Source: Antedon bifida (Eukaryota; Echinodermata; Crinoidea; Comatulida; Antedonidae). Taken from it: DNA of 64,000 bases. Where the stretch lies: NCBI GenBank assembly GCA_963402885.1, contig OY727094.1, positions 17,176,501-17,240,500 of the forward strand, given 5' to 3'. The number at the start of each line of letters is the position of its first letter. Within the stretch, counting starts at the first letter, position 1. Position numbers and translations under genes: made by a program. The notes under the pieces were generated by a model that had not been told where the DNA came from, did no database searches, and saw nothing but the letters and a program-made list of their open reading frames with translations. Below are positions 11,701 through 63,656 of this stretch, piece after piece.

Positions 11701-14700
11701 GTTGATGGATGGCTGTTAATTTGTGAAACAAAGCCCTAATAAATGCCTTTGTTTAAATACTGGGCGTCATTATAAACAGTGCCAGGAGTGTTATTTTGTG
11801 AAAACTTTGTCTAATTTCAGTTATTTTAGATGAAAATTCTCTAGACTAGGCCTAGCTAAGCCTAGGCCTAAATCATCCAGATTTTCGGGGGGAAATAACC
11901 AATTTTCAGGTAGGCGGGGGATCTGCATAAAAAATCGGGGAAAATCGGAAAAACCCGCAAATTTCTGGGAACTTGGGACCTCTGAAGTTGATTACACAGC
12001 AGTGTCATACAATATACAAATACTAGTATTAACTAACAGAGTTCGGTATAACAACAAACGAAGAAGAGCAGGTAGAAATAATTAGCAATTTCTTTGAAAA
12101 CGTCTATCACAAATCACAAGAAAAACCTGTAAACGAAAACATTAAACCTATTGAAATGAAGTCTCCCTTTACAAGTGATGAAGTTGCCAAAGCAGCCAAA
12201 TGCTTAAAAAATAATAAAAGCCCAGGAAGTGACCAAGTATACTCTGAAATGGTAAAATATGCACCTATAGAAGTTTTTAACCACATAGCAGAAATATATA
12301 ACCAAACAGCTAAAACAGGAAACATACCTAAAGAAATCAACGAAGGCATATTGCATCCAATACCGAAACCAGGCAAGAAAAAAGGTCCACCAAAAAACAT
12401 CCGACCCATCATCCTTCTGTCGGTTCTTAGGAAAATGCTAGCAATATGCTTACTTAATAGGATAAACGACAGATTAGATGAACATGTCCCTGTAACACAG
12501 GCCGCGTATCGCAGAGGACGAAGCACTACTGAACATGTACATACATGCAAAATGAAAAGGCAATTGCGTCATCTAACTACGAAATAATATTACTACTACT
12601 TGACATGACCAGTGCTTTTGACACTGTGCGGAGGAATACTCTATTCGACATACTGACACATATATTACAAGATGATGAACTACACATGTTGAAAGTTTTG
12701 ATAAACAATGTAAAATTAAGCGTTTGAATTGGAAAACAGACAGGGAAATTGTTTACTACTACACTAGGAGTACCACAAGGTGACTGTATGTCTCCGATAC
12801 TGTTCACACTATACCTAGCAAAGGCACTCGAATCAGCAAACACAACACCATTATCCCTACAACAGCTTAATATCCAGATGCAGTATGCAGACGACATTTC
12901 ATTCATTAGCGACTCAAAAGAACACATAACTAAAATAAAGAAAAATGTAACAGAGAAATTAGCAGAATTCAATCTAAAGATAAACGAAAGTAAAACAGAA
13001 GAATACCTAATAGGAAGAAATACCGATAGCAAATGGGAAGAAAGCAAATACCTTGGTAGTAACTTGGACACAGAAAAAGACATTAAAAGAAGAAAATCAC
13101 TAGCAGCTATGGCATAATATAAGCTGAAGTCGTCGCTAGAACACAAAACGATGTCTATAGACGTGAAATCCCGTTTGTTTGACGCATACATAGCAAGTAT
13201 TTTCTTATATAACAGTGAACTCTGGGTACTAAACAAAAAATTACAAGAGAGTATAGATATATATCACAGGAAAATGTTGCGAAAGATGATAGATATTAAA
13301 TTAACAGATAGAGTGTGTAACACGAAAATATACGAGATAACAAAACAAGAAGAATAGAGTAAAAGAATTAAACGAAGGAGACTAAAATGGTATGGACACA
13401 TAATTAGATTACCGGATGATACCCCAATCAAACAAACAATGAAGGAAACTAACAGGAAAGTAAAACGACCCGTAGGAAGACCAAGAAATAACTGGATGAA
13501 TCAAATAAAGAAAGACTTACAAGGACAAGTAGACACAAACACAATAACAAACCATCCTGCCAAAAACAGAAAAAAATGGAAACAAATTGTGGAAAGCGTA
13601 ATGTCGGAAGACGGAAAATGTTAACAAGAAGAAGAGAAGATAGTATTAACTGTCAAAGTAACTTGCAAGATAATATATGTTCATTAGCAGACACTGATGA
13701 TATCATTAAATTTCCGCTCCTTTAATCATTTCAATATTTAGCACTTTAGTCTTTATTTCTAATATCATTAATATGTATGAACAGCACAATCAAATACATT
13801 TTAAAATAAATATTTACCCTCTTTTTGTGGGCTTGGCATTGGATTTGTTCTTTTTGATGTTTCACGAGATTTGGCTTCCTGTTTTGATGTTGATGCTTCT
13901 GTGGGGTTTTTCTCTTTCTCAGGTCTACTTTCTGAAAAATGTGTTGATATAATTAAAGATGCTACCTTGTTATTAGCATTCATCATTATGTTTTAGAATC
14001 AAATTAACTTGGCAACAACAAGGGTTAGTGTAATGAATCATTTTTTGTCGATTCCAACCTGATCCAATTTGCCATCATCATTATAATATGTGTATCTTTT
14101 GTATTCTCTATTTGAATTCAAATGTCACAGCAGTAATCACAGCAAAATGCTGTATAAACCTGTCTTTTATCCAAACTTTTATAATAAATTTATTTAAAAA
14201 AATCTCTTTTGTACCAATTTTATATTGATTGGTATTTTGGCCTTTATAGTTATACTTTTAAATTTATTTTACAGCAGATTACAATAACAATAAAGACATT
14301 TTTTAAGTAAATTTGAATTAACTTTCATTAAAATCTTTTACCAGATTTTGTTTCCTGCTTTGATGGTCCTGCTCTTGGTGTGTATCCTTTTGTATGGCGT
14401 GGAATTTTCAACATTTGTTTAACTGTGACATCAGTGACAGCATCCTGATACATGTCTAAAGCTTTTAAATTAAAAAATGTTAATAAAATCATGTATATAT
14501 TATTTTATTTCTTACACAGTTACATTGGTTTTTAAAAGCATAGAAATTTTGAAACCATTTTTATGATGTTGTTGCAATAATTTAAAAACTAATTTATCCT
14601 CAAATTGAATTTAAATAACTTGTATGTTTATATGGTAGTGGTTTTCTCCATGCATTTATGAAATATCAAAGTCATTTGTGTGCAAGAACTAGTCGCAAAT

Positions 14701-20700: not shown

Positions 20701-23700
20701 TAATCTTTTTTTCTTCTCAAATATTTTATTGATGGTTTAATCGGACAATGTGAAACCAGGGAGGAGTTAAATTACTTAATTAAGCCTTGTAAAACAATTC
20801 CCTAGTAGGCCCAATTTATTCTTCAAGATGTCGTCTAAGAAAGCAAAGCAATCTCAACAAGCAAAGAATATTTTTTCATATTTCTCAAAAAACGGTAAGT
20901 AAACGTACCTCTTTTTGAAACTTAAATTAAATACATATCACAATAAATATCTTGTTTGATCCATGGAGATAAATCCATGTTTGATTTACATTTAATAGAC
21001 ATTGTTACTTGTAGACGGTGTCGTGCTTCGTGGATTACAATAAGTTAAGATGTTAATATTTTGAGTAGGGCCTGTATACTGGACATATTATAAATAATAT
21101 CGATCATAAATGATTATGTATATTGTGAAAGATCTGTAGTTTAACCATTCATAAACGTACGTTCATGGTTAAACCGTGTTGGCGTACGTATTTCTAGGTA
21201 CCGTAGTTAACGCACGTTGTTTGGCGTCGCGGCACTTACCATACTCGAAAGTTATATATTATTGCGTTGCCAGCATGCCTTAGTATCGTATTTTATGAGC
21301 TAAAGACAATGTTACCGCTTAGGCCTACTTCAGCAGAATATTTCTTTGATATCTAATTTTTCTTCACATGGGGCGTCTATATGCCTAATAACAATGTTTT
21401 AAATTATTTATTTGGTTAATTTTACAGAAAATACGACCGCCCCCGATAACCGAACACCGCCTGATGATTCCATTCCGACTCCACAACCAAATGAACCTAC
21501 CCAGACAACCGCAACCGTCCCTGACGCACGAGCACCCGATGATTCGGTTATACATTTTGTGGATCCGATCATACATACCAATACCACCATCGATCAACCG
21601 ACAACGAGCGCTACCGCCCCCGACAACCGACCACCGTCTACCATCAACCAACCAACGACAATCGCCACTGCGCCCCACGTCAGCCAATCCGTAAAGAGGA
21701 AGGGTAAGCATGCCGACCATTTCGACTCTTCGTGGAAGAGGAAACGCGAATGGTTAGTGATGCAGGAGGGAGAGGGCATGTTCTGTCTGTTGTGCCAGAA
21801 ACACAACATGACACCACAGGGAGTAATAACTTGGAACAGGGCACCATGCAAACGACTTCGTCTTGAAAGCGTAAAACAGCACGAAAACGCAGAATCGCAC
21901 AGAAGCGCAGTGCAGGTTGACGCTATACAGGTAGTTACGCAGCCAATGATAGCGGAATCTATATTACCTGCCATTAACATGAAAGAAATGATAAAACTAT
22001 TCGCCTGTCTACTGTATATCACCTGGCCAAACAGAGAATAGCCCATACGACCAACTTTGCACCTCTGTTAAACTTCATGGATTTCCTGGAAGTTCAAGTT
22101 CAACAGACTGCCCGACCAGCCTACACCAGTCGCAGTCGCAGTTCAATACAAGACATGTTGATAACAATGTCCGATATTATCGAACGAGATATCTTGGATG
22201 GATTGAAAGCTGCGAACACGTTTGCATTGCTCTTTGACGAGACAACCGATGTTTCTGTCAAAGAACAGATGATTGTACGAGGGAGGTACGTAAATGAAGA
22301 TGGGAAAATTCTTGTGAAGTACCTAAAAATTATCGAACCGCTGGCCCTTGGCAGAATTGAAGGTGATGTCGTAATTAGGTTAAGTGGAAAAAACATTGCC
22401 AGAAATGTAGTACATTTTGCAGATGAGAAGGGCATTTCTTTCGACAAGCTATGTGCAATCGGAACCGATGGTGCAAGTGTAATGACGGGAAAACACAATG
22501 GCGCAGTAAAGTTGATTACAGACGAACAGATTGAGAGGCAACATGATGTTGCTGTAAAGACGAAGGCAGTGGGATGTCATTGTGCGGCACACAAACTAAA
22601 TCTAGCGGCATCCCAAGCTGGTGACAAGGTGGAGTACGTCAAAAAATTCAAAGCGATAATGCGCCAACTATACGATTTTTTTGATAATAGCGCGGTCCGA
22701 ACAGCGGGACTTGCTGAGATGCAAAGACTTTTAGAAGAAGAAGAGCTGAAAGTTCTACAACCTTCTTCAACTCGGTGGCTTAGCATAGGCAATTGCGCAT
22801 TAAGAATAAAGAAGATCATAACGAGTATACTTATGAGCATGGAGCGAGAGGCCGAAGAAAGAGGAGACGCTACTGCTTCTGGACTCTACAAAATGATGAC
22901 AGAATATAGATTCCTCGCAAGCTTTACATCAAGAATGGATGGAATTAAAGCAGTATATCGTCGACCACTATGCTGATAAAACAAGCACTGAAGTTGTGCG
23001 ATTGCTAAGTACTAACCCAATGCGACAACTGTATCCAAACATTGCGGAACTAGCCGAGGTTTATCGAACCATCCCACCACATACTGCTGACGTAGAACGC
23101 GACTTTTCTCAAATGAAAACAATTAAAAATGTCTGCGCAATAGAATGACGGAAAAAACATTAGATGCAATTATGAGAATTGTCATTGAAGGCCCTACATT
23201 AAAAGAGTACCCATTCAAAAAAGCAGTAGAGGCACGGCCATTAAAAAAAACCGGCGAATTAAACTGTAGGCTAATCAACCGTTCCACGCCGACTGCTTTG
23301 TGGAGTAACTTCCCGACTACGTGTATTTATTAAAAAAACATTGAATTGAAACATACTAATATCTTGTACTGTTATTATTTTTTATTTTGTGAATTACATC
23401 ATTAGCGCGAGTATACTGTAGTATGGCTCGGATGATTATCAATACATTTGACAGAACGACGACGATTGATACACAGTGACTAATTGAACTAGCTAGGCCT
23501 AGCCTAGATCATTCATCGCCCAGGCCGCAGACCTGGCGAAATGTACGTTCGTTCATGTAAGTACATCGTGATGTTTTTCTACGTGGTTGTTGTGCGGCAT
23601 GAATATCAATAAGAGGTTTTTATCTTGAACAAAATATTCTCGGCTAAATCGAACAAATTTATTTAATTCATGCAATCTAGCTAGGCCTAGGCGTTCTTCA

Positions 23701-26700: not shown

Positions 26701-29700
26701 TTCTTTAACCTTTTTATCCATGTATAATAATGTGTATATAAAACATTCAAAACAGCTATAATTATAAAAAAAAGCATTATATAATATAAACATTAAAAAG
26801 GCGTTAGCATTATAGGAATGTTAAATTTTTTAAGGCATTGATAATCAACTTAAATAGTATCCAGAAATTTTTGCACACTGGCTGAATATTTAATTCAGAT
26901 GGTATCGTAATATCAGGTATAGTATAGAGTCGGGGCCTGTCATCACAATCACCATGGATATGTGACTTAGTAACACATAATATTTTCCTTTTAGTATATA
27001 TATTATTTTAACTTTGAAAGAATCAAATGGAGCTCAGGAGGCCATGCTTTATTTATAATACAAAAAGAAGGATTTTATCTCTGTCCACAGCTTTACAGAC
27101 TGACACGTCTCAAACTTTTGGGATTCATTAAAAAATAAAAGATAGAACCTTGATAATATAAGTTACAATATAATAATAATAATAACTAGAATTTAATTCG
27201 TCACTTTGACGAATTATAGGTGATCATTTTTATCATTTTACTGAAATTAATTTTTTTTAAACATGCACGTACGTTAACATACGATCGGAAAATGTTGATG
27301 TATGCCATCCTATTATATGCTTATAGTGCTGAGTTGTGCCTATATGCCATATACAATATGTACAGTATATACTGTATACCTATGTGTAGTATAGGTGAAA
27401 TTACGGGACACACATGTTCTAATTTTTTGGCATGATGACGTTATCAAACTAAACTTTAAGATGACAATTTCGAAAGATAATTAATTGAGCAAAAAAATAT
27501 AAGATTTGGAAAAAAATTTGGCACGTAGAAGCACTGTGCGCGCTCTTTGAATTGTGTATAACTTAGACGAAAAATATGAAAAAACTACTTTTTCACTTCA
27601 ACTGGCCATATGTTAACGTCACAACATCCGATAGGCTTAATTTTTATATGAATTAATATATACATTTCATCAGCTTTCATAATAAATTATAATCATCAAG
27701 GTAACCTTCAATTTTGAAGAGCTGTAAGATATTCAAATTTACTGCGAAGGTGAAATTACACGGCCTACGTTATTCAAGTTTTTACGCGTGATGACGTCAT
27801 TAAAATGAAAATAGTGTCAACTCATGATAAAGATAATTAATTAAGCAAGCACATACTGAAAGTTGTGCGAAATTCGAGCACACATAACCAAGATGCGCTC
27901 TGTTGAATTTAAAAATAAGGATTTGTTATCTTTTTGTGTAGATTATCACATTCAAGTGGCCATTTGATGACGTCAAAACATTTTGTACGTAAAATGTGTA
28001 CATGAATTCATATCTACAACTCAATGGCTTCTAGAATAAGTTAAAAAAATCGGGGGTCATCTTGCATTCTGAAGAATTATTTTCATTTTAAAAAAGACCT
28101 ATTTTTCACCATTTTCAGAACTTTTGTAAAATTAATGTGCGCATTTTGTCATTCTTAACGTGCTCGTATAGCGTTATTTTAAGTCGGAACTGACTCAAAT
28201 TTGGTGAATGTACTAAGGATGGTGAGTAGAATGAGATTTGTAAAAAAAATTCATATTTTTACGCTTTTTAAGTATCGCGCGCGCAAAAAAGCATTTTTGC
28301 GCAGTAATTTTTTGAAACACGCAAATGGCCTAATTCATGCTCTAAATTGATCAAAACTTAATTTTGAGCGTTTTAATTTTTTAACGCGCGATATCACGCG
28401 CATGAACCTACGTGCGCGTGCGTTTTTATTTGCTAATATTTTACCCTTGATCTGAAGTTTACGTGTAGTGAATTTCATTAATATGTGATAATGAATTATG
28501 GAGATATGATTGATAATGTGATTTCGCAAAATGGCGTATAAATGTCGTCACGGATGAGTGATCACGCTGGAAAGCTTATTAGGATTAAGTTATATTATTT
28601 GAAAGATATTCTGAAATTTTTGTAATCATTGACATTAAACTTTTTGAGATAATTGTTACACAAAATAGTGTACAGAAACAATAAAAAGACTAGACATGAA
28701 ACTCGTCACTTTGACGAGTTTGGTTATCCGCCGCGCAAGTGGTGAAACATGGACGTTTAACAACGTACCTTTTAACATTAAGAGGATAAGTTGAGGCCAA
28801 AAGGAAGCGTTCACGTTGGCATAATGACCTACAGGCCGGACAAGCAACTGACAAACAAACCAGAAAATGTAATAGAAATCATATACCTCCTAACAACGAT
28901 GAACGGCTCTGATACGAGAAAAATATTGTTTGCCTCCCTCTATCCTGCAAAAATAACGTCTTATTTGGCCTGCTACATTATAGAAATAGGTAGGAAATAA
29001 ACGATTTTGGGCTATTCCATTACAGTCGGTATAAACAGTAAAATCTGTTTACATATTACATACAGTGTAGATTAGGTGAAATTACGGGAGCCGTCATTTA
29101 TTCCAAATTTTAACATGGCGCGGCATCAATATGAAATACAAAATAGCAATTTCGGAAGGATATTATCTCAGCAACAACATATTAACGTGTAGAAGAAATT
29201 TGAATACGTGAAATATTGATGCGCGCTCTTTTAAATGTAATGAACTATTACGCAAAAAATGAAAATACGACTTTTTTTATTTAACTGGCCATATGATAAC
29301 GTCACATCATCAGATTGGCACAATTTTTACATGACTTCGTATCTAAAATCCAATAGCTTCCAGAAAACGTTTTAATCGTGATTATCACATTTTATTCTTA
29401 CGAGCTATAACGGATTTAAATTTAATGTAAAGATGAAATTAATGCCACACGTAATTTAAATTTTTAGGCATGATGACGTCCAAAAAATTAAAATATTTTT
29501 AACTCATGCGAAAGATAGTTGATTGACCTAGACAATATCAAAATCGGGGTGAAAATGGAAAACGGATAAGTGGAGATGCGCTCTATTTAATGTGATGAGC
29601 TATGACGAAAGATACAAAAATCTTAAATTTTATATTCACGTGGCCATACGATGACGTCACAATGTCTGGTTAGCCATATTGATACATGATCTGATATCTA

Positions 29701-32700
29701 CAACTCATCAACTTCCAGAAAATGTCATCCACAAAAAGTTGACCGTGTAGTTTAGAAATTACGACTGTTTAAAAAAAGGCATAATTTTGAAGAATTTTTG
29801 AACTTTTTCATCAAAAACGCGTGCAAATTGTCCAATTCGACGTGCTCGTATGACGTAACTTTAAGTCAAAATTGTTTAAAAGTTGGTAAAATGACTAGAA
29901 GAGGCTGGAAAAACATAAATCACGCGAAAAAATAATGTTTTTAATGCTACGTGCGCACCGCACACGTAAAAATTTGCGCACGCGTGGGAATTTTTGACAT
30001 GCTTAAAATGACATGAAACGCGTAGAAAGTTGATTAGAAATTAATTTTGCGCATTTTGAAATTTTAAATGCGCGTGCGCGCGTAACTTTGTGTAAAACAC
30101 GCAATTTTTTTTTAACAGAAAGTTAGCGCATGATATAAATTAAACTTTTGCAAAGTTTCACTTTAAAATGTTATTTGGTTTTTGACAAATGTTAAATACA
30201 AGAAAATCGTTAAATCGCGCGTACGTCACGTTACGCAATTGTAAACATCATGTAAAGCTTCGCTTGACGACGTTACATAAATGTCAAAATGTTAACATAG
30301 TTAACAAAATGTTACGTTTGCAAGTTTTAGAGAAAAGCGTTACACAAAAATCATACAGAAAGAAAGAAGAGAAACTAGACATGAAACTCGTCACTTTGAC
30401 GAGTTAGTTATCCGCACGACAAACGCCACGTGCACGTCATGCGTTAGAATTTTGCACACAGAAAAAAATTATGGCATATGACCTGATCTGAAGAATATGA
30501 TATGTTGTTAGTGCTGAATTTTGTCAATTTTGTGTCATATAGTACAGTACAGTATAAACAGTATAATCTGTATACATATTACATACAGTGCGGAATAGGT
30601 GAAATTACGGGACCCGCCATTTATTCCATTTTTTAACATGGCGACGGTATCAAAATGAAACACTAAAATAATAATTTCGGAAGGATATTATCTCAGCAAC
30701 AACATATTAGCGTGTAGAAGAAATTTGGATACATAAAATATAGATGCGCGCTCTTTTAAATGTGATGAACTATGACGTAAAATATGAAAATACGACTTTT
30801 TTTATTTAACTGGCCATATGATGACGTCACCACATCCGATTGGCAAAATTTTCACATGATTTTGTATCTACAATCCAATAGCTTCAAGAAAACGTTTTAA
30901 TCGTGATTATCACATTTTATTCTTACGAGCTATAACAGATTGAAATTTACTGTAAAGATGAAATTAATGCCACACGTAACTTAAATTTTTAGGCATGATG
31001 ACGTCATAAAAATTAAAATATTTTTAACTCATGCTAAAGATAGTGGAGATGCGCTCTATTAAATGTGAGGAGTTATGACGAAAGATACAAAAATCCTAAA
31101 TTTCATATTCGCGTGGCCATACGATGACGTCACAATGTCCAGTTAGCCAAATTAATGCATGATCTGATATCTAAAACTCATCAACTTCCAGAATGTTTAT
31201 TAAAAATAATTTTTTACCGTTTAGTTTAAAAACTACGATTGTTTAAAAAAAGGCTTAATTTTGACGAATTTTTGAAGTCAAAAAAGCGCGCAAATTATCA
31301 TATTCTACGTGCTCGTATGACGTAATTTAAAGTCGAAATTGTTTAAAAGTTGGTAAAATTACTAGAAAAGGCTGGAAAAACATAAATCACTCGAAAAAAT
31401 GACGTTTTTAACGCTACGTGTGCACCACGCGCGTAAAAATTTGCGCACATGTGGGAATTTCTGACATGCTCAAAATGACATGAAACGCGTAGAAAGTTGA
31501 TTAGAAATTTATTTTTCGCATTGTAAAATTTTAAACGCGTGTGCGCGCGTAACTTCGTGTAAAACATGCCATTTTTTGTGCACAAAAAGTTAGCGCACGA
31601 TATAAATTAGACTTTTGCTAAGTTTCAATTTAAATTGTTATATGGTTTTCGATCTATGTTAAATACGCGAAATTCATAAAAATGCGCGTAAGTCATGTTG
31701 CGCAACTCTGACGTCATTCAATTATAGGAAAGCACAACTTCACGTGATTGCCCATATGTTGACAAAGTTATAAAATGTTAAATTACACGTTTTAGAGATA
31801 CGCTCTGCACAAAAATGACAGAAAGAAAGAAGAATAATACAGAAAAAAAAAAAAATAAGATGATGAAACAGGACAGTTACAAGGAGTTATCCGCCATAGT
31901 GCGGATAACTAATAAAAAGATGATGTTGATGTTGATGATTTCGTACAATCACAAGAGGTTATCAGCAACTTCGTTGCGGATAACCAACTAGACATGTAAC
32001 TCGTCACTTTGACGAGTTTGGTTTTCCGCCGCGCAAGTGGTGCAACATGAACGTGTAACGACGTACCTTACCGTACCGAACATTAAGGGGATAGGTTGAG
32101 GACAAAAGGAAGTGTCCACGTTGGCATTATGACCTGAACTGAAGAATATGATATGTTTTTATTGCTGAATTCTATTATTTTGATTCATATATAGTATACA
32201 CAGTATAATCTGTATCTATATCACATACAGTGTAGAATAGGTGAAATTACGGGACCCGCTATTTATTGCAATTTTTAACATGGCGACGGCATCAAAATGA
32301 AATACAAAGATAGCAATTTCGGAAGGATATTATCTCAGCAACAACATATTAACGTGCAAAAGAAATTTGAATACGTGAAATATTGATGCGCGCTCTTTTA
32401 AATGCAATGAATTATGACGCAAAAGATGAAAATACGACTTTTTTCATTTAACTGGCCATATGATGACGTCACAACATCCGATTGGCAAAATTTTCACATG
32501 ATTTCGTATCTAAAATCCAATAGCTTCCAGAAAACGTTTTAATCGTGATTATCAAATTTTATTCTTACGAGCTATAACAGATTAAAATTTACTATAAAGA
32601 TGAAATTAATGCCACACGTAATTTAAATTTTTAGGAATGATGACGTCAAAAAAATTAAAATATTTATAATTCATGCGAAAGACAGTTGATTGACCTAGAC

Positions 32701-35700
32701 AATATCAAAATTTGGGTGAAAATGGAAAACGGATAAGTGGAGATGCGCTCTATTAAATGTGATGAGCTATGACGAAAGAAACAAAAATCATAAATTTTAT
32801 ATTAGCGTGGCCATACGATGACGTCACAATGTCCGGTTAGCCATATTAATATATGATCCGATATCTACAACTCATTAACTTCCAGAAAATGTCATCCACA
32901 AAAAGTTGACCGTGCAGTTTAGAAATTACGACTGTTTAAAAAAAGGCATAATTTTGACAATTTTTTTAACTTTTTCAACAAAAACTCGCGCAAATTGTCC
33001 AATTCCACGTGCTCGTATGACGTTACTTTAAGTCGAAATTGTTTAAAAGTTGGTAAAATTACTAGAAAAGGCTGGAAAAACATAAATCACGCGAAAAAAA
33101 TATGTTTTTAATGCTACGTGCGCACCGCACACGTAAAAATTTGCGCACGCGTGGGAATTTTTTACATGCTTAAAACGACATGAAACGCGTAGAAACTTGA
33201 TTAGAAAATAATTTAGCGCATTTTGAAATTTTAACTGCGCGTGCGCGCGTAACTTTGTGTAAAACACGCAATTTTGGTTCGACAGAAAGTTAGCGCATGA
33301 TATAAATTAAATTTGTGCAAAGTTTCAATATAAAATGTTATTTGGTTTTTGACCTATGTTAAATACGAGAAAATCGTTAAATCGCGCGTACGTCACGTTG
33401 CGCAATTGTAAACATCATGAAAAGCTTCGCTTGACGACGTTACATAAATGTCAAAATGTTAACATAGTTCACAAAATGTTATGTTTGCAAGTTTCAGAGA
33501 AAAGCGATACACAAAAATCATACAGAAAGAAAGAAGTAACTCGTCACTTTGACGAGTTTGGTTATCCGCCGCGCAAGTGGTGCAACATTAACATTAAGGG
33601 GATAGGTTGAGGACAAAAGGAAGTGTTCACGTTGGCATTATGACCTGAACTGAAGAATATGATATCTTGTTATTGCTGAATTTTATTATTTAAATTCATA
33701 TATAGTATACACAGCATAAGCTGTATCCATATCACATACAGTGTAGAATAGGTGAAATTACGGGACCCGATATTTATTGCAATTTTTAACATGTTGACGG
33801 TTTTAAAATGAAACGCGAAGGTAGCATTTCCGAAAGGAAATTATCTCAGCAACAACGTATCAGCGTGTAGAAGAAATTTGAATACGTGAAATATTGATGC
33901 GCGCTCTTTTAAATGTAATGAATTATGATGCAAAAGATGAAAATATGACCTTTTTTATTTAACTGTAATATGATGACGTCACAACATCCGATTGGCAACA
34001 TTTTTACATATTTTCGTATCTACAATCCAATAGCTTCCAGAAAAAGTTTTAATCGTGATTATCACATTTTATTCTTACGAGCTATAACAGATTAAAATTT
34101 ACTGTAAAGATGAAATTAATGCCACACGTGATTTACATTTTTAGGCATCATGACGTCAAAAAAATTAAAATATTTTTAACTCCTGCGAAAGATAGTTGAT
34201 TGACCTAGACAATATCAAAATCCGGGTGAAAATGGAAAACGGATAAGTGGAGATGCGCTCTATTCAATGTGGTAAGCTATGACGAAAGATACAAAAATCC
34301 TAAATTTTATATTCGCGTGGCCATACGATGACGTCACAATGTCCGGTTAGCCATAATAATACCTGATACGATATCTACAACTCATCTACTTCCAGAATAT
34401 GCCATCCACAAAAAGTTGACCGTCTAGTTTAGAAATTACGACTGTTTAAAAAAAGGCATATTTTAAACGAATTTTTTAACTTTTTCAACAAAAACTCGCG
34501 CAAATTGTCCAATTCCACGTGCTCGTATGACGTTACTTTAAGTCGAAATTGTTTAAAAGTTGGTAAAATTACTAGAAAAGGCTGGAAAAACATAAATCAC
34601 GCGAAAAAAATACGTTTTCAATGCTACGTGCGCACCGCACACGTAAAAATGTGCGCACGCGTGGGAATTTTTGACATGCTTAAAACGACATGAAACGCGT
34701 AGAAAGTTGATTATAAATTAATTTTGCGCATTTTGAAATTTTAAATGCGCGTGCGCGCGTAACTTTGTGTAAAACACGCAATTTTTTTTCCACAGAAAGT
34801 TAGCGCATAATATAAATTAAACTTTTGCAAAGTTTCAAGTTGAAATGTTATTTGGTTGTCGAGCTATGTTAAATACGAGAAAATCGTTAAATCGCGCGTA
34901 CGTCACGTTGCGCAATTGTAAGCATCATGAAAAGCTTCGCTTGACGACGTTACATAAATGTCAAAATGTCAACATAGTTAAAAAAATGTTATGTTTACAA
35001 GTTTTAGAGAAAAGCGTTACACAAAAATCATACAGAAAGAAAGAAGATGAAACTAGACATGAAACTCGTCACTTTGACGAGTTAGTTATCCGCACGACAA
35101 ACGCCACGTGCACGTCATACGTTAGAATTTTGCACCCAGAAAAAGATTATGGCATTATGACCTGATCTGAAGAATATGATATGTTGTTAGTGCTGAATTC
35201 TGTCAATTTTGTGTCATATAGTATATACAGTATAAACGGTATAATCTGTATACATATTACATACAGTGTAGAATAGGTGAAATTGCGGGACCCGCCATTT
35301 ATTCCATTTTTTAACATGGCGACGGTATCAAAATGAAACACTAAAATACCAATTTCGGAAGGATATTATCTCAGCAACAACATATTAACATGTAGAAGAA
35401 ATTTGAATACGTAAAATATAGATGCGCGCTCTTTTAAATGTGATGAACTATGACGCAAAAGATGAAAATACAATTTTTTTTTTTCAACTGGCCATATGAT
35501 GACGTCACAACGTCGGATTGGAAAAATTTTGATATGAATTCGTATTTACAATACAATAGCTTCCAGAAAACGTTTTAATCATGATTACCGCTTTTTATTC
35601 TGACGAACTATAACAGATTGAAAGTTACTGTAAAGATGAAAATAAGTGACCCACGTTATTTACATTTTTAGACATGATGACGTCAAAAAAATTAAAATAT

Positions 35701-38700
35701 TTTTAACCCATGCGAAAGGTAGTTGATTGACCTAAAAAATATCAAAATCTGGGTTAAAATGAAAAACGGATAAGCGAAGATGCGCTCTATTAAATGTGAT
35801 GCTCTATGACAAAAGATACAAAAATCCTATATTTTATATTCGCATGGCCATACGATGACGTCACAATGTCCTGTTAGCAATATTGATGCATGATACGATA
35901 TCTACAACTCATCATCTTCCAGAATACGTATAAAAAATAACTTTTACCGTTTAGTTTAGAAACTACGACTGTTTTAAAAAAGGTATAATATTGACAAATT
36001 TTAAGGAATTTTTTAACTTTTTCATCAAAAACGTACGTAAATTATCCAATTCGACGTGCTGGTATGACGTTAATTTTAAGTCAAAATTGTTTAAAAGTTG
36101 GTAAAATTACTTGAAAAGGCTGGAAAAACATAAATCACGCGGAAAAAATTGTTTTTAACGCTACGTGCGCACCGCGCGCATAAAAATATGCGCGCGTGTG
36201 GGAATTTTTGACATGCTCAAAAACGCGTAGAAAGTTGATTAGAAATTGATTTTTCGCATTTTGAAATTTTAAACGCGCGTGCGCGCGTAACTTCGTGTAA
36301 AACATGCCATTTTTTCCTCACAGTCAGTTAGCGCAAGATATAACTTAAACTTTTTCTAAGTTTCAAATTAAAATGTTATATGGTTTTCGATCTATGTTAA
36401 ATACGCGAAATTCATAAAAACGCGCGTAAGTCATGTTGCGCAACTCTGACGTCATTCACAATAGCGGGTGCACAACTTCACGTGAACGCCCACATGTTGA
36501 CAAAGTTATAAAATGTTATGTTTACACGTTTTTGAGTTACGCGTGACACAAAAATGACAGAAAGAAAGAAGAATACAGAAAAAAAAAAAAGATGATGAAA
36601 CAGGACAGTTACAAGGAGTTATCCGCTACTAAGCGGATAACTAACTAGACATGAAACTCGTCACTTTGACGAGTTAGTTATCCGCACCACGACAAACGCC
36701 ATGTGCACGTAATACGTTGGAATATTGCACACAGATAAAGATTATGGCATTATGACAAGAACTGAAAAAATCAAAAGAAAAGAAGAAATTTGAATACGTA
36801 AAATATAGATGCGCACCCTTTTAAATGTGATGAACTATTACGCAAAATATGAAAATACGTCTTTTTTTATTCAACTGGCCATATGATGACGTCACAACGT
36901 CCGATTGGCAAAATGTTTACATGAATTTGTATCTACAATCCAATAGCTTCCAGAAAACGTTTTGATCATGATTATCACGTTTTATTCTGACGAGCTATAA
37001 CAGATTGAAATTTCCTGTAAAGATAAAATTAATGACCCACGTAATTAAAATTTTTAGGCATGATGACGTCATAAAAATGAAAATATTTTTAACTCATGCG
37101 GAAGATAGTTGATTGACCTAGATAATATAAAAATCGGGGTAAAAATGGAAAACAGATAATTGGAGATGCGCTCTATTAAATTTCATGCGCTATGATGAAA
37201 GATACAAAAATCCTATATTTTATATTCGCGTGGCAATACGGTGACGTCACAATGTCCGGTTAGCCATATTAATGCATGATCCAAAATCTACAACTCATCA
37301 ACTTCCAGAATGTGTAATAAAAATAACTTTCACCGTTTAGTTTAGGAACTACGAATGTTTAAAAAAGGGCATAATTTTGACAAATTTTGACGATTTTTTG
37401 AACTTTTTCATCAAAAATGCACGTAAATTATCCAATTCGAAGTGCCCGTATGACGTAATTTTAAGTCGAAATTGTTCAAAAGTTGGTAAAATTACTAGAA
37501 AAGGATGGAAAAACATAAATCACGTGAAAAAAATTGTTTTCAACGCTACGTGCGCACCACGCGCGTAAAAAAATGCGCGCACCTGGGAATTTTTTACATG
37601 CTCAAAATGACATGAAACGCGTAGAAAGTTGATTAGAAATTAATTTTTCGCATTATAAAATTTTAAACCCGCGTGCGCGCGTAACTTCGTGTGAAACATG
37701 CCATTTTTTTTTCACAGTCAGTTAGCGCAAGATATAACTTAAACTTTTGTTAAGTTTCAATTTAAATTGTTATATGGTTTTTGATCTACGTTAAATACGC
37801 AAAATTCGTAAAAACGCGCGTAAGTCATGTTACGCAACTCTGACGTCATTTACAATAGCAGGTGCACAACTTCACGTGAACGCTCATATGTTGACAAAGT
37901 TATGAAATGTTATGTTAACACGTTTTAGAGATACGCTCTGCACAAAAATGACAGAAAGAAAGAAGAATACAGACTAGACATGAAACTCGTCACTTTGACG
38001 AGTTAGTTATCCGCACCACGACAAACGCCACGTGCACGTCATACGTTGGAATATTGCACACAGATAAAGATTATGGCATTATGACAAGAACTGAAAAATA
38101 TGATATGCTGTTAGTGCTGAATTCTGTCAATTTTGTGTCATATAGTATATACATGCAAACAGTATAATCTGTATACATATTACATACAGTGTAGAATAGG
38201 TGAAATTACGGGACCCGCCATTTATTCCAATTTTTAACATGGCGACGGTATCAAAATGAAACACTTAGATAGCAATTTCAGAAGAAAATTATCTCAGGAA
38301 CAACATATTAACGTGTAGAAGAAATTTGAATACTTAAAATATAGATGCGCACCCTTTTAAATGTGATGAACTATTACGCAAAATATGAAAATACGACTTT
38401 TTTTATTCAACTGGCCATATGATGACGTCACAACATCCGATTGGCAAAATGTTTACATGAATTCGTATCTACAATCCAATAGCTACCAGAAAACGTTTTA
38501 ATCGTGATTATCACGTTTTATTTTTACGAGCCATTACATATTAAAATTCACTGTAAAGATGAAATTAATGAACCACGTAATTAACATTTTTAGACATGAT
38601 GACGTCATAAAAATTAAAATATTTTTAACTCATGCGGAAGATAGTTGATTGACCTAGATAATATAAAAATCGGGGTAAAAATGGAAAACAGATAATTGGA

Positions 38701-41700
38701 GATGCGCTCTATTAAATGTCATGCGCTATGATGAAAGATACAAAAATCCTATATTTTATATTCGCGTGGCAATACGGTGACGTCACAATGTCCGGTTAGC
38801 CATATTAATGCATGATCCAAAATCTACAACTCATCAACTTCCAGAATGTGCAATAAAAATAACTTTCACCGTTTAGTTTAGGAACTACGAATGTTTAAAA
38901 AAGGGCATAATTTTGACAAATTTTGACGATTTTTTGAACTTTTTCATCAAAAATGCACGTAAATTATCCAATTCGAAGTGCCCGTATGACGTAATTTTAA
39001 GTCGAAATTGTTCAAAAGTTGGTAAAATTACTAGAAAAGGATGGAAAAACATAAATCACGAGAAAAAAATTGTTTTCAACGCTACGTGCGCACCACGCGC
39101 GTAAAAAAATGCGCGCACGTGGGAATTTTTTACATGCTCAAAATGACATGAAACGCGTAGAAAGTTGATTAGAAATTAATTTTTCGCATTATAAAATTTT
39201 AAACCCGCGGGCGCGCGTAACTTCGTGTGAAACATGCTTTTTTTTTTTCACAGTCAGTTAGCGCAAGATATAACTTAAACTTTTGTTAAGTTTCAATTTA
39301 AATTGTTATATGGTTTTTGATCTACGTTAAATACGCGAAATTCGTAAAAACGCGCGTAAGTCATGTTACGCAACTCTGACGTCATTTACAATAGCAGGTG
39401 CACAACTTCACGTGAACGCTCATATGTTGACAAAGTTATGAAATGTTATGTTAACACGTTTTAGAGATACGCTCTGCACAAAAATGACAGAAAGAAAGAA
39501 GAATACAGAAAAAAAAAAAAAAAAAAAAAAAAAGATGATGAAACAGGACAGTTACAAGGAGTTATCCGCTGAATGCGGATAACTAAAAAAAAAAAAAAAA
39601 AAAAAAGATGATGAAACAGGACAGTTACAAGGAGTTATCCGCTGAATGCGGATAACTAAAAAAAAAAAAAAAAGATGATGAAACAGGACAGTTACAAGGA
39701 GTTATCCGCTGAATGCGGATAACTAAAAAAAGAAGATGATGATGATGATTTCGTACAATCACAAGAGGTTTTCCTGCAACTTCGTTGCGGAAAACCAAAA
39801 AAAAATAAAGATTTCATACAATAACAATAGGTGATCATTTAGAATTCTAAATGATCACCTAATAAAATCATTTTTGCAATAGAGCTTGTTCATAAACATA
39901 ATGTGTGCATAAAACATATGCAAAATAAAATCTAAAAATGACCACAAAAGATTACAACAGGAAAAATTGATTAATGGATTAATACAATTTAAAGAAGTTA
40001 ATAATAACACATACATGTAAATATTTTTTTTCATACTCTAAGAGTTGTAAAATAAGTTTGCAATATCGTTGATATGAATAAACTATTTGATTTGTTTTCT
40101 TAATAGTTAATAGTAATTTATAAATTCATTTCATTTCAAGTAACATTTATTACTTCTTCTTTCAAATAAAACGTTAACATTTGACAAAAATAAATAATTA
40201 AAATAAATAATAAATATACTTCTGCTTAAAAAAAAAAAAACTTTATCAAATTTTTAAAAAATGCTAAAAAGAAGAGGCTAAAGCCCTAGAAGTTATACAT
40301 CAATTGGATTACTCCAAATTGACACTTGTGGTAGGCAAGCCAGGTACAATAAATGTAAAAAATTGTGTGTAATGAAAAAAAAAAGAACAAAAAGACAGAA
40401 CAAAACACACACAAACAAAAAAACAAACAAACAGGAAGCATAAAGACTATAATGGTAATTATTGTAATTTAGTATAGCCAAAAACGGCCAACAATAATCA
40501 TTTAAAATATACAGTAACTAGAAATTGCGAGACGCCATTAGCGCCCGTTGAAAAATACAATAACAAAGCTATAAAACCTACACTAATTAAGAGCCATGTC
40601 TGTAAGAATCAAAGTAATATCAAAAATAGTGGCAGACTCAAAAAATGGATTTCTTTCAAATTTTGCACATGGCTATATATGTGTTGAGAGAAATCAAATA
40701 TGAAGTATTTTTTATTTCACACATGTATTTCCATGGCAATGGCCAAATTTGAGTTTATGCGGTTTGTTAGTTTGTTTTTTTACGAAAGAGGCAGAATATT
40801 ATATTTTTACAAATTTATAATTATATCTATTTTTTATAATGGAAAAAAGGGATTTTATATATTTAAACACATTACAGCCTCTAATATACCTATTATCATG
40901 ATGGGTTATTTATACTTTATAGTGCATTATATCGGACGCTTAATGATCTCCTAGTTTTTTTTCACAGCATTACTTGCGTGGATATCACAATACATTGCAT
41001 ATTTTGAACTATCATTCGCGATTATAATCTTAATTAGAGTAAGAACCAATCATTTAATGATAATCCATTTCGCGTATACGAAAGATACCTGTAGTACTTT
41101 CACTTTCCAAAAATTAAGAGCGTATCAAAAGGGCTGGTTTGGGATTCATCTGAATCTTTTTTTTTTTTGGTCTTTTGTGAGTTCGTCCCACTTTTATTAT
41201 CATACTCTGTTATAAATATTATATTTTTTAAGCATATTTTTTCCTTTCGTTTAAATGTAACAATGTTAAAAGGAATAAAAACATTGCATTCGTTTTTTTA
41301 CATTTAAACAAAAGTAATTTAAATATATAAAATAATTAACATAATGCCAATAAAAGACGATAAAAATTGATTAAAAACGTTTGACAGTTGTCATTATTCT
41401 ATAAAGCTCGTGTTCGTGTTCGGGTAGAGAGGCTATAAACTCAGGGGAGGAATATAAAATACCCTCCCTTTTCACCAAGACAAAAATGAATAAGATGAGT
41501 AAGAAGAATGCAAAAGTTTGAAAAATAAGGTATTTAGACTGGATAGCATGGAATGATCTATTTAATGAAAACCGTAAGGTTAGAGTCCATACACTGTGCA
41601 AGTCCAAAATAGTATTTTGGCTCTGTGTGTATGTGAGACGCTTCATACCCGGATGTAAAACTTCGAAACCGGAACAGTTTGTTTGATATGCAGATTTTTC

Positions 41701-57129: not shown

Positions 57130-57960
57130 AAGGGTAAAAAAAATGAGCTAGATCAGCTGAAAAGTTAACCCCATGAAATATTTTGCAAATTGTTTGACAT
57201 AGAGTGAAATATAAGGAATGGCTATTGCCAGACGATTTTAGTGGTGGGGGTGCCTGCCAGACCCCCATTTCTGGAGGGCCAAAAATGAACTAGATCAGCT
57301 TAAAAGTTAACCCTCTGAAACTGGTGGGAAAATGTTCAATAAACTCATAACTACCATGAATGACCATTGCCAGACATTTTCAGTGGTGGATTGTGCTTGC
57401 CAGACCCCGTCAAACACCCAACCCGCAAAAAATTGAGCTAGATCAGCTGAAAAGTTAACCCCATGAAATATTTTGCAAATTGTTTGACATAGAGTGAAAT
57501 ATAATGAATGGACATTGCCAGACGATTTTAGTGGTGGGGGGTGCCTGCCAGACCCCCATTTCTGGAGGGCCAAAAATGAGCTAGATCAGCTTAAAAGTTA
57601 ACCCTCTAAAACTGGTGGGAAAATGTTCAATGTACTCATAACTATTATGAATGACCATTGCCAGACATTTTCAGTGGTGGATTGTGCCCGCCAGACCCCA
57701 AAAATGAGCTAGATCAGCTGAAAAGCTAACCTTTTAAAACATGCTGTAGAATGTTCAGCATGATCCCTAGTATAATAAATGACCATTGCCAGACATTTTA
57801 AGTGGTGGGTTGTGTCCACCAGGCCCCCTCAAACACCCCACCCCCAAAAATGACCCAGATTAGGCCAAGGGTTAACCACTGTAAAACTGGTGGGAAAATG
57901 TGTAGTATACTGTCAAGAATATGAATTGTCATTACCAGACATTTTTATTTGCTCATTATA
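57130..57960. repeat. Left-arm subrepeats (~140 bp)
   Basis: GAGCTAGATCAGCT followed by AAAAGTTAACC (or a close variant) recurs near 57147, 57288, 57434, 57578 and 57705. Two unit types alternate. One contains ATTTTGCAAATTGTTTGACA, the other CTGGTGGGAAAATGTTCA. The right arm repeats this alternation in inverse order. Confidence 0.85.
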
Positions 57961-58787: not shown

Positions 58788-61700
58788 TTGTTCAATGTTT
58801 ATGACAGCCATAATGAATCTAAAAGAAAAGCAAACAGTACCAAAAGAGCGAGACAAAGTATCTGTAAGGATAAATCAAGAGGAAACACATTCAGAAGAAA
58901 CATCAATAACCTTGGAAAAGTCACAAAGTTGTGCAGAGAAAACGCATGTATGTACAGTACAACTACAGAAGAGCAAGGAGATAAAGAATTACAACATAGT
59001 AAAACTCAAGAAAAAACCTCTGAAACTACAGAAGAACAGGATATAAGTGAAGCAGTTGGACCAGCAGCACCAAGTATTTTACCTGTATCTGTTAGTAAAG
59101 AGGTATAATGTGATCATTAATTTTAAATAGCCTATGTTTTTTCTCTTTGAAAATGTATTCTACATTCCATATTACTTTTATTTGTAGTTTAATTTAAAGT
59201 TTGAGGTTTAAATTTAAATATGCTTGACTTGGGACATTACATTTCTTTCAGAACACTGACCATGTTTCAAAGTGCTACATCTGCCAAACGGTAACGGCGG
59301 ACAACGATTGTAAATTAAGAGCGTTCAGTGAAATGAAATGTTCAACTGTAAAGAATGCTGCTGCATTACGTAAGAAAATGAAGTCTGAAAATATGCTGAT
59401 ACAACAAACAAGGTTTTTCTTATGAAACAACATGAAAATTCAATCAGCTATCACCCTTTATGTCATAGGTATTACACTGCCGTGAAACAAGACAAAGTAG
59501 TGTCCTTCAGAAATCATATGAATGTGGCATGTTAAAGGGAACTTGCATATTTTGTGGAAAAGGCCGAAAAAATGGGAAAGAAGAGAAAAGGCTTAAGATA
59601 GCAACTGTTTCTGGGTGCAAGTCACTTTCCCAGCGGGTAAAATTTTCAAAAAACCAACGTATCAATAGTCTAATTCGGTGTGGCGTTGATCTGCCGAGTT
59701 CAGTTTCTTCTAGAAACTGATAAACATGATGGTTCAACAGCAGAGCATTCATCTTATTGAAGTAACACATCTTATGGGAGTCACAAAAGGGCATTTTCAT
59801 CCCTACTGAAACATATTGAATTATTATTAAGTATTGGGAAAACAACGAGCTATACTTGTCTCTGATTTGCTAAGCTTTTACAAAATCGAATTTGTCAATA
59901 ATGGAGGAAATCAAACTGATATCAACTCATATTCGTCCCAAAATCTTACAAGGAAAATTCAATAAAAATTTAAAGATGAAATCAAAGTAAAACCTGCAGA
60001 CAGACGAAGAGGTAACTTCATTTATAGTTCAGTTCTTCTAGGAGAAGAAGCCACTGCTCGACTTTATGATAATTCTGAACAATATGTACAGGATAATAAA
60101 ATAAAATGGGCTGCTCTTCATCTTAGATCTATAATCATGCAGCTCCCAAAGACAAAGACCCCAAATCCTGCTACAGTTCATAACTTAAAAGAGTGTGCTG
60201 CCAAGATACCATCACAGTTAGAATTATTCTTTAGGAGTCTTCTTGGTGGCATCGACCAAAATGCCAATGATGCAAACAAAGACAAGTTTGATAGAAAGGT
60301 TATTTCCATTGCATCTGATGCCATCTATAATGTATCTCGTGGAACTGTGAAACCATGGAAACACACTGTCGTTGGTTTAGGTTTTACATCTCTGACAGGA
60401 TCAAAACTGGCTATGCAAATTTTGGACAGGACATTGTAATAGCTATAGTGAAAGCAAGGCCTTGAGACTGCCTATTCAGTTCAAGATGATGAACGCAACG
60501 CCCCAGATGGTATCCGGCTTGACCCAACCTTGGCCACTGCATGTGTATGGGATAATAATGATGCAAATGTAGAAACACTTGATGGTATTAAGAAACTCTA
60601 CACGCTACAGTTGGACATACATATCAGAATATATTGCATGACGACCAACTGCTCAATAGGAATACTATTGGATTTCGGGATGGTAGAAACAGGCGGAAAT
60701 TTGTTGGAGTTGAAAGAGAAATACCACCTTTTGGGATAGGTATAAATAAAGCTTTGTTTATAAGTTCCAATGCCACATCAACTACAAATGTTAGAGAATG
60801 TAGTACAATCACTGACAAACCAATGGAATACCAAATACCACTGAAGGCATTGGATATGTATTGGTTTTGGAAACTGAATGATGGAGATACACCCCTACAT
60901 GCCGAATTCATGAGCAAGTATATCAATGATCATTTACCAGTTCAGCGCATTTGCTACATGGATCCTATATCAAAATCCCCAACAAACAATGATGTGGTTA
61001 GAGAGACAATGATCCGGACTATGGCTATTGCCAAGGAAGCTGGCCAAGACTATGCAGACAAGACTATGTATGCAGTTGTGACATATGATTTGGCAGTAGC
61101 ATTAAAAGCTTACTCCATACAAACAATACAATCCCCCTATTTGATAAGCTTTTAGTATTACAGGGCAATTTTCACACAGAGTTGGCGTTCTACGGAGCAG
61201 TTGGAACGTACATTAACGACAGCGGTATCGAATATATTCTCCAAGAAGCAGATATCTTGGCTGAGGGGTCAATGATGGGTTTCATCAAAGGAAAGTTTTA
61301 CAACAGGTGCACTAGAATTCACCAATTGCTTGCCAATGTCTTGGAGCAAACAAACTTGCGGCCAACACTTTATTCATATAAATGGACCTAAACTTTGGAA
61401 CTATTTCTGTAATAAAATTCCAAGCATGGTGCATAAGCATGGTAAAAGTTTAAAAAGGTCCATTAAAGAATATCTTTTATTAAAGTATACCTCAGATGGT
61501 TACCTAATTAATTAAGATACTGTATTCTTTTTTTTTTTTTACTGATATAATGTACGTAACGGCTAATTAAGATTAGCCTAAGTGTTGTATTATTATTATT
61601 ATTTGTATTTGTATGTTTACTTGTATAATGTAAAGAGGGACTACAGTGACAGGCCCATCGGGCCTTTTGTAGTCTCTCGACTATATATATTATATGCTAA

Positions 61701-62536
61701 CCATTGTTAATGTTATGCTAAAATATGGTCAATAAATGTTTCTTGAATTGAATTGAATTGAAAAAAGTTGTATAAACGCTTTCTTCAAGAAATAAATGCA
61801 GAAGATCATCACACATTTCAAGAAATAATGTCAACTGCACCTTTGGACCCATCATTGATTGAGAGCATATATCGGATCCTGTTGTAATTAATCACCTGCA
61901 GAAGTACGAGAATTACTTCCAGTCAGTGCTTACTGGAAATATAGGTTCAACAGTACAATTCTGGGCTATTTACATTTTTCTTATTAATCGACTCCATAGA
62001 GAACTTCAGAGATGTGTGAAAACAAATGATGTCACTGGCTACATTAATGTATTTCCAACCATATTATCTGTTTACTTTGCCCTGAACCGACCTAACTACG
62101 TCAGATGGGGAACTCTATTCATACAGAAACTGAAAAACGCTGACCCAAAGTTGCTTGAAGTACTGGAAAAAGGAGCATTTTCCATCAGACGTACAAATAA
62201 GCACTACAGTAGATCAGCTGTTGACCTTTCCTTAGAACAGACGGTCAATCGTGATTCTTCTTCAAGTATGAGAGGGATTGTTGCCTTTCCTAATTCGGAA
62301 AATGGTCATTGACTATGACTCAACGAGCCATGGCAGTCACGAAGCTGAGAACATTTGCTGGTCTTGAATTGGGGGCAACTGCAACAGATCAATGCCGTCC
62401 ATCAAGAATAAAAAAGGACAAATTGACAGTGAAACGGAAGAAACAGAGATCGAAGAATCAAGTGATTCTTATGGCGATGATGCATGGAGTGAAGACTCTG
62501 ATTCAGAAGAGGAATATATGGATTAATTTAAAATAA
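58788..62536 (+). pseudogene. Transposase-like gene of the 6.7-kb element (decayed, interrupted)
   Basis: A first exon (58788-59102, basic, Ser/Thr-rich) is followed by a 149-nt intron (GTATAA...TTTCAG) and an exon from 59252 with CYICQTVTADNDCKL. Further in-order blocks in shifting frames are GTCIFCGKGRKNGKEEKRL, RKVISIASDAIYNVSRG, KHTVVGLGFTSLTGSKLAM, VWDNNDANVETLDG, LAFYGAVGTYINDSGIEYIL and GKFYNRCTRIHQLL. After a LINE insertion come LYKRFLQEINAED, FALNRPNYVRWGTLF and KGAFSIRRTNKHYSRSAVDL followed by SLEQTVN. The FALNxPNYxRW and FSIRRT...DLSLEQT motifs mark a protein family I have seen only as uncharacterised, repeat-associated proteins of marine invertebrates. I infer a transposase but do not assign the superfamily (Academ or KDZ-like are possibilities). 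Several stops and shifts make it inactive. Confidence 0.72.
61350..61762 (+). mobile_element. 5'-truncated LINE 3' end inside the transposase gene
   Basis: The end of an RT frame (INGPKLWNYFCNKIPS, SLKRSIKEYLLLKYTSDG, stop at 61515) is followed by a 3' UTR and a TTGAATTGAATTGAATTGAA tail. GP.LWN..P plus a short-repeat tail is typical of CR1/L2-group LINEs. The transposase reading continues on both sides, so this is a later insertion. A GC hairpin, AGGCCCATCGGGCCTT, lies in the 3' UTR. Confidence 0.8.
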
Positions 62537-63656
62537 TTTGTGCAAAAAAGTCATAACTTATTAAATAAGACTGTTTTTTGTTGTAACTAGTGAAAACTAC
62601 TGTAGATAGAATAAGGTACTATATAAAGTATCATATGCTAAAATGTCGGGTGTTGGGATATTTGATGTAGTTCTCATTTTAGTCATTCATGCTGTTTTTC
62701 AGTGTACTTAATTGCTCCATATATTTTGTTTTATAAGTTTAGGTTTTGAGTTGATCTAGTTCATGTTTTTTTTTTGGGTGGGGGAGGGGGGTGTTTAATG
62801 GGTGTCTGGCGGACACAACCCACCACTTTAAATGTCTAGCAATGGTCATTTATTATACTAGGGATCATGCTGAACATTTTACAGCATGTTTTAAAAGGTT
62901 AGCTTTTCAGCTGATCTAGCTCATTTTTGGGAGTGGGGGTGTTTGACGGGGTCTGGCGGGCACAATCCACCACTGAAAATGTCTGGCAATGGTCATTCAT
63001 AATAGTAATGAGTACATTGAACATTTTCCCACCAGTTTTAAGGTGATCTAGCTCATTTTTCGCCCTCCAGAAATGGGGGTCTGGCAGGCACCCCCCACCA
63101 CTAAAATCGTCTGGCAATGTCCATTCATTATATTTCACTTTATGTCAAACAATTTGCAAAATATTTCATGGGGTTAACTTTTCAGCTGATCTAGCTCAAT
63201 TTTTGGGAGGTTGGGTGTTTGACGGGGTCTGGCGGGCGCAATCCACCACTGAAAATGTCTGGCAATGGTCATTCATGATAATTATGAGTTTATTGAACAT
63301 TTTCCCACCAGTTTCAGAGGGTTAACTTTTAAGCTGATCTAGCTCATTTTTGGCCCCCCCAGAAATGGGGGTCTGGCAGGCACCCCCCACCACTAAAATC
63401 GTCTGGCAATGGCCATTCCTTATATTTCACTCTGTCAAACAATTTGCAAAATATTTCATGGGGTTAACTTTTCAGCTGATCTAGCTCATTTCTTTTACCC
63501 TTTACAATGTCCCTCATAGCCACACCCACCAAAAGAAACGCGCCAGACTGTCATTTCCATACATTGATATGTACGTAGATAATTGCCACATGCATAGAAA
63601 TTGGTTAACTTTCCAGCTAGGTTGACCCCTCTGGGCTCCTGCTCTTGTACCCTCTA

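Follow-up and report, generated by a model that had tools for sequence, protein, structure and literature searches.

The closest described counterparts of the array considered here are the rolling-circle transposons called Helitron2 or Helentrons, together with their non-autonomous forms, the HINEs. The array lies in a stretch of 64,000 nucleotides (nt) from Antedon bifida (GCA_963402885.1, contig OY727094.1, positions 17,176,501-17,240,500 of the forward strand), which is referred to below as the window. As described, Helitron2 has a hairpin at its very 5' end that holds an asymmetric inverted repeat (ATIR, or subTIR), a second ATIR immediately upstream of a 3' hairpin, a 5' T, insertion into T-rich sites without duplication, and compensatory changes between the ATIRs (Bao and Jurka 2013, PMC3627910). 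All of these are shared by the Antedon elements. The same source notes that RepHel is at times encoded in the opposite orientation, and the elements described are single ones rather than deep nests in their own 5'-subterminal zone. The anatomy reported for Helentrons, HINEs and DINE-1 (Thomas et al. 2014, PMC4067079) is again that found here; the differences are that five subTIR classes occur with one type of 3' hairpin in Antedon and that the copies form nested arrays. Tandem clusters are described there for Helitrons, while a similar pattern is only suggested for Helentrons.

Three further systems come close. The FoHeli elements of Fusarium share self-insertion into or beside the 5' end, nested and tandem copies, and repeated 5' termini, but the cases given are few (one nested, one 2 bp upstream, and one triple in Metarhizium), against hundreds of junctions here (PMC5148889). 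Cg_HINE of Crassostrea shares the HINE substructures, T-rich targets and internal repeats; its arrays consist of internal satellite-like repeats, whereas those of Antedon are stacked whole elements (PMC7492417). For Drosophila elements, dimers formed through site preference are cited in a review (PMC12628747). Searches of open-licence papers found no description of typed, deep and genome-wide nesting, which is weak evidence of absence. The type of element is known; what is unusual is the depth and regularity of the stacking. By far the most probable explanation is serial, strand-specific insertion of HINEs between T and T in their own 5' oligo-T zone.

Eight nested elements in the window

The interval 27186-39861 contains eight left ends and eight right ends, all in one orientation. 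The left hairpin cores (CGTCACTTTGACGA) stand at 27199, 28704, 30389, 32002, 33542, 35067, 36659 and 37988, and the right hairpins at 31885, 31957, 36617, 39560, 39633, 39700, 39767 and 39828. A search of both strands that allowed up to two mismatches found no left core in the rest of the window. A preliminary description of this DNA gave the order as L1 L2 L3 R3 R2 L4 L5 L6 R6 L7 L8 R R R R4 R1, which is right and closes as a bracket string. The ends fall into tag classes A (AGTTATCC), G (TGGTTATCC), T (TGGTTTTCC) and B (TAGGTGATCA), with a fifth, Q (GGGTTATCC), found outside the window only; right ends with GGTTATCA (R2 in the window and one in another array, A1), which a one-mismatch rule would place in class B, were read as class G. 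By class, the tags agree in seven of the eight pairs. The original statement that they agree in all of them fails at pair 5, where L5 faces an A-type right end. In 200,000 shuffles each, the probability of at least seven matches was 0.0059 when right-end classes were shuffled, and that of a closed string with at least seven matches was 0.0007 when all 16 ends were shuffled. The units, U1 to U8, and the features that accompany them are the following.

27186..39861, minus strand: U1, class B, tag TAGGTGATCA; outer element with its 3' end at 27186 and its 5' end at 39861, enclosing all others
28690..31986, minus strand: U2, class G; sits in U1, 66 nt from the U1 5' end, and is split by U3
30375..31911, minus strand: U3, class A, complete; sits in U2; its joined flanks correspond to a G-class copy at 96.6% over 119 nt
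31819..31858, minus strand: uninterrupted landing zone in U3; CAGAAAGAAAGAAGA and oligo-A on the plus strand, oligo-T in element orientation
31988..39797, minus strand: U4, class T, with GGTTTTCC at both ends; adjoins the U2 5' end and is split by U5-U8
33537..35052, minus strand: U5, tag class G, body nearest to a T-class copy; 3' end without CTAGACATG
35053..36643, minus strand: U6, class A, complete; sits in the 5'-subterminal zone of U5
36645..39658, minus strand: U7, class A; adjoins the U6 5' end and is split by U8; its own end is ambiguous between 39658 and 39725
37974..39585, minus strand: U8, class A, complete; sits in U7; its joined flanks correspond to the uninterrupted form at 97.6% over 120 nt
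39512..39731, minus strand: tandem repeat (period 67-73) of an A-type 5' end in three near-identical copies, namely R8, R7 and one surplus copy

For the outer element U1, the tag at 27217 matches the 5' hairpin at 39828-39861, and an A stands on either side (27185 and 39862). That units start at a like place in their hosts is borne out for L2, L3, L5, L6 and L8, at 66-69 nt from the host 5' end, but not for L4 and L7, which adjoin the end of the preceding unit (R2|L4 and R6|L7).

Read as the reverse complement, the left ends present an ATIR, the hairpin AACTCGTCAAAGTGACGAGTT, some ten nucleotides and CTAG|T, the last stretch being absent in U5 alone. In all eight window units the 3' ATIR, either GCGGATAAC(T/C) or TGATCACCTA, lies immediately upstream of AACTCGTCAAAGTGACGAGTT. 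The right ends begin T|TA and continue into a hairpin with the ATIR in its stem; all eight in the window fold, and such 5' hairpins also occur in the arrays outside the window and in 17 of the 20 isolated copies. Both hairpin arms covary with the distant tag; compare GGTTTTCC...GGAAAACC with GGTTATCC...GGATAACC. On the plus strand, all 52 complete elements have an A ahead of the CTAG end, and 51 of them have one just after the 5' end; the lone exception, an A-class copy in array A6, has a T instead. Since the left ends are Helitron-type 3' ends and the right ends are 5' ends, the elements lie on the minus strand, and the targeted region, placed near the 3' end in the preliminary description, is 5'-subterminal by the Helitron2/Helentron convention.

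A 5' hairpin with ATIR, a 3' ATIR with hairpin, and T-T insertion without target-site duplication are the marks of Helitron2/Helentron (HINE) elements, and all are present. As judged from sequence, the array consists of such non-autonomous elements, about 1.5-1.75 kb long, whose bodies hold no recognised gene. Canonical Helitron1, which starts with 5'-TC, lacks a 5' hairpin and inserts at A^T, was considered and is ruled out by the 5' hairpin, the TA(G) start and T^T insertion; the sole Helitron1-like feature is the 3' CTAG, which resembles CTRR. Also rejected was the idea that the tag match represents a new recognition code. The tag is the ATIR/subTIR already described for Helitron2 and Helentrons (PMC3627910, PMC4067079), and matching tags are therefore expected of such elements.

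Nesting, landing sites and relatives across the genome

The genome searched comprises 315.6 Mb in 27 contigs, the window included. The 3' hairpin of the A, G, T and Q types has 2416 exact matches genome-wide and the B-type 3' end has 1629; reversed controls gave none. Besides the window, eight more arrays and 20 isolated copies were sampled, all on contig C1, and the nine arrays below include the window; in L001-L010 one side was too short to hold a right end. Together the nine arrays contain 77 left and 78 right ends, which form 73 closed pairs. Class agrees in 67 of these pairs; when right-end classes were permuted inside each array, 1000 times over, agreement averaged 32.9 and never exceeded 45. 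Without the re-reading of GGTTATCA the count is 65 matches and 8 mismatches (shuffled mean 33.0, maximum 42, 200 shuffles). The arrays vary in what they contribute: in A2, a mixture of classes B, T, A and Q, all 12 pairs match, A3 has a single class and is uninformative, and A6 is poor, with 3 matches, 2 mismatches, 2 unopened ends and 1 unclosed. Isolated copies, which had been proposed as a check, have a right end about 1.2-1.7 kb away in 17 of 20, all 17 class-matched; no right end was found in the other 3 of the 20. For two copies, S036 and S050, two 5' ends of their own were considered and rejected: each has a left flank that falls within a diverged host copy, to which the second right end therefore belongs.

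A test independent of the tags makes use of the two tail types that adjoin the 5' end in A-class copies. Of nine interrupted A-class units, eight have a bracket partner whose tail is of the type carried by the nearest complete relative of the body, and in array A7 the tail types alternate y-x-y-x, as nesting predicts. One region of about 50 kb is particularly dense: L011-L016 holds 25 left and 25 right ends on one strand, and in L011-L015 (G000:C1:15408600-15458599) four T-class copies run head to tail.

To locate landing sites, the 100-nt flank to the left of every left end in the arrays was mapped to complete copies. Among 80 such ends, 40 lie at 44-75 nt inside a host 5' end, one at 136 nt, 16 outside any copy, and 23 at the host 5' end itself (19 flush and 4 within 5-19 nt outside it). 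There are two modes of landing, one inside the oligo-T zone and one flush at the 5' end. Each copy offers about 235 AA positions, and the zone at 40-80 nt holds 6.2% of AA, 13.4% of AAAA and 42.6% of runs of six A; that 40 of 41 internal landings fall in this zone is improbable under the AA, AAAA or A6 expectation. Since the arrays had been picked for regular spacing, the first 16.8 Mb of C1 were also used, unselected and with exact end matches only. That list contains 164 left ends, of which 58 are isolated, and 83 neighbour pairs less than 6 kb apart. On the same strand are 76 of these pairs, versus 7 on opposite strands, and 59 of the 76 are spaced 1.25-1.75 kb, while chance would give about 3.8% of copies a same-strand neighbour. 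Across the genome, exact junctions number 302 for flush B-type and 171 for nesting in the CAGAAAGAAAGAAGA zone, with none in controls.

If a guest has interrupted a host, the two flanks of the guest should read as one host copy. The 60 nt on either side of 52 complete elements were joined and aligned to uninterrupted copies, and in 17 cases the joined sequence reads across the junction as one unbroken host copy. Eleven of these do so at 90% or more over at least 109 nt, among them U3 in U2 (96.6%) and U8 in U7 (97.6%); in the remaining six the match is weak or short. In 35 of the 52 the joined flanks do not span the junction (15 isolated copies and 20 in arrays). A guest need not share the class of its host (there are cases of Q in A, A in T and G in B), and the type restored at the junction is that of the host.

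Body identities are 90-93% among U2, U4 and U5, 89-98% among U3, U6, U7 and U8, and 82-84% between these groups; U7 and U8 are 97.6% identical, while array A5 holds a copy that is 99.6% identical to U7. In a comparison of 99 units, the nearest relative of each window unit lies outside the window, at 94.7-99.6% (99.4% for U4, with a copy in another array), so window neighbours are not copies of each other. Neither of the two outcomes named in advance as contrary to nesting occurred: the window units do not group as tandem neighbours, and none of the 17 isolated copies with a right end has mismatched ends. The outermost unit is the most diverged, as had been stated, with a U1 body about 60% identical to every other window unit. 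The reason is that U1 belongs to another abundant family (that with 1629 exact matches of its 3'-end pattern), and divergence alone does not show a greater age.

Proposed mechanism and competing explanations

What was observed directly comprises the anatomy and T-T boundaries of the elements, their typed nesting and landing site, the bias in orientation, the restored hosts and the relatives elsewhere. To these observations the preferred explanation adds an enzyme. A RepHel protein would nick between T and T on the T-rich strand and insert a single strand there, so that elements would enter resident copies one by one without visible target duplication. Rolling-circle insertion by RepHel and the strand choice of the enzyme are presumed. 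Nesting would result from an oligo-T zone about 44-75 nt in, and head-to-tail neighbours from the T-T at the 5' terminus. Because a resident copy carries the T-rich targets on only one of its strands, newcomers would share its orientation, and because each brings its own landing zone, growth of the array could continue. The earlier proposal of a self-targeting, non-autonomous rolling-circle element is in this respect supported, since typed brackets, restored hosts, matched isolated copies and outside relatives speak for serial nesting, although its 3' location for the target does not stand. It is conceivable, if rather doubtful, that the 5'-subterminal oligo-T is a maintained landing pad, a preferred target that the element carries at a fixed and harmless place and that attracts newcomers from the whole family in a single orientation, with arrays seeding their own growth.

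RepHel genes are present in the genome, with 39 PF14214 matches, 38 of them above the cut-off. On contig C11, RepHel-linked sequence ends in a HINE-like 5' part with a 5' hairpin, directly followed by the 3' end of another element (L056, L060). A RepHel partner of these HINEs is putative. In RepHel-linked L056 (~815), L057 (707) and L058 (1148), a HINE-like stretch retains the tag and the 3' hairpin is absent. If an inner terminator were lost, a RepHel element could use the 5' end of a HINE.

Several observations weigh against serial insertion. Six of the 73 closed pairs in the nine arrays mismatch (pair 5 and five others), nine ends are unpaired (5 right unopened and 4 left unclosed), and the tail test fails in one of its nine units, which lies in A2. 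The arrays come from the places listed first on a single contig and were picked because their spacing was regular. A RepHel element with both HINE-like ends was not recovered: only one 5' end was seen, and no 3' end was found. The closest relative lies in the same array for 23 of 79 array units, 5 of them neighbours, against 14.3 on average, and 25 at most, with shuffled labels. One junction with a B host and a T guest recurs at A1:1986 and A2:2175 with 99.4% identity between hosts and 99.2% between guests. In the window itself, L5, with tag TGGTTATCC, has as its bracket partner one of three near-identical A-type ends (39554-39725).

Pair 5 is no true pair. The window holds 4 left and 5 right A-type ends, as opposed to 3 left and 2 right ends of the G/T type. 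The U5 flank in which L6 sits is 99% identical to a T-class copy, and the closest sampled relative of the U5 body is also a T-class copy, at 98.2%. Since body and landing-site flank are both T-like, the A-type 5' end does not belong to U5, whose own 5' end was not found in the window array. On the simplest reading, the U5 end would have been lost and an A-type end duplicated locally.

Among the alternatives, composite transposition survives best, although as a general account it is unlikely. Here nested pairs would move as one unit, and many nestings would be copies of few events. Self-insertion with composite movement has been proposed for Fusarium Helitrons (PMC5148889), identical nested junctions do recur in Antedon, and the A1:1986 and A2:2175 pair fits such movement, though T-class copies are often 99% identical anyway. 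Elsewhere host and guest disagree: between A1:1986 and A1:27999 the same junction has hosts at 90% and guests at 99.1%, and in A7 hosts at 99.4% accompany guests at 95.8%. Discordant identities at one junction require separate insertions. At least one case could therefore be composite movement; others that have the same junction could not.

Tandem amplification, whether by a rolling-circle concatemer with bypassed ends or by unequal crossing-over, would make the bracket order a by-product, and has very little probability as the origin of the arrays. Helitron bypass arrays are described (PMC4067079, PMC12628747), and the nine arrays contain 22 flush right-left junctions, 16 of them same-class and two with body identities of 99.0% and 99.65%; the excess of same-array relatives (23 of 79 versus 14.3) points the same way. 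Bypass arrays, however, have unequal end counts (several 5' ends, a single 3' end and truncated units) as opposed to 77 and 78 here, the class differs at 6 of the 22 flush junctions, and same-class neighbours are mostly 78-97% identical. Moreover, all eight window units are closest to copies elsewhere and host halves rejoin. As the main cause, tandem amplification is largely refuted; it may contribute, and some share of local duplication or recombination in the arrays is possible.

That left and right tags fit by chance because tag types are few has next to no probability: five of the eight window right ends are A-type, 0.0059 is not vanishing and A3 has a single class, but the pooled arrays reach 67 of 73 against a shuffled maximum of 45, and the tag-independent tails agree in 8 of 9.

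Other window features and what the arrays mean

The remainder of the window contains repeats and reading frames of other kinds. A minisatellite with a 28-bp unit occupies 1-2134 (76 copies, 96% matches). A minus-strand retroelement frame of 1127 aa at 52594-56580 matches RVT_1, RNase H, Integrase_H2C2 and rve, and is presumably gypsy-like. On the plus strand, a frame with a DUF4371 match at 21978-22976 is one that we take to be hAT-like, and a reverse-transcriptase-like frame lies at 12033-12587 (RVT_1 E 5e-5, under the curated cut-off). Tandem arrays at 57137-57827 and 62897-63491 have the motif GAGCTAGATCAGCTGAAAAGTTAACC in common in opposite orientation, and the frames between them, at 59966-62312, have no Pfam match.

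For the family, the value of the arrays lies in their order. A guest is necessarily younger than its host, and an array is therefore a readable order of arrival for the five tag classes, which gives a rolling-circle family an internal clock of a kind seldom available. Five end-matched tag classes in one genome also make the proposed pairing of ATIRs testable. Finally, the nesting offers one concrete route by which HINEs could turn array-like without unequal exchange.

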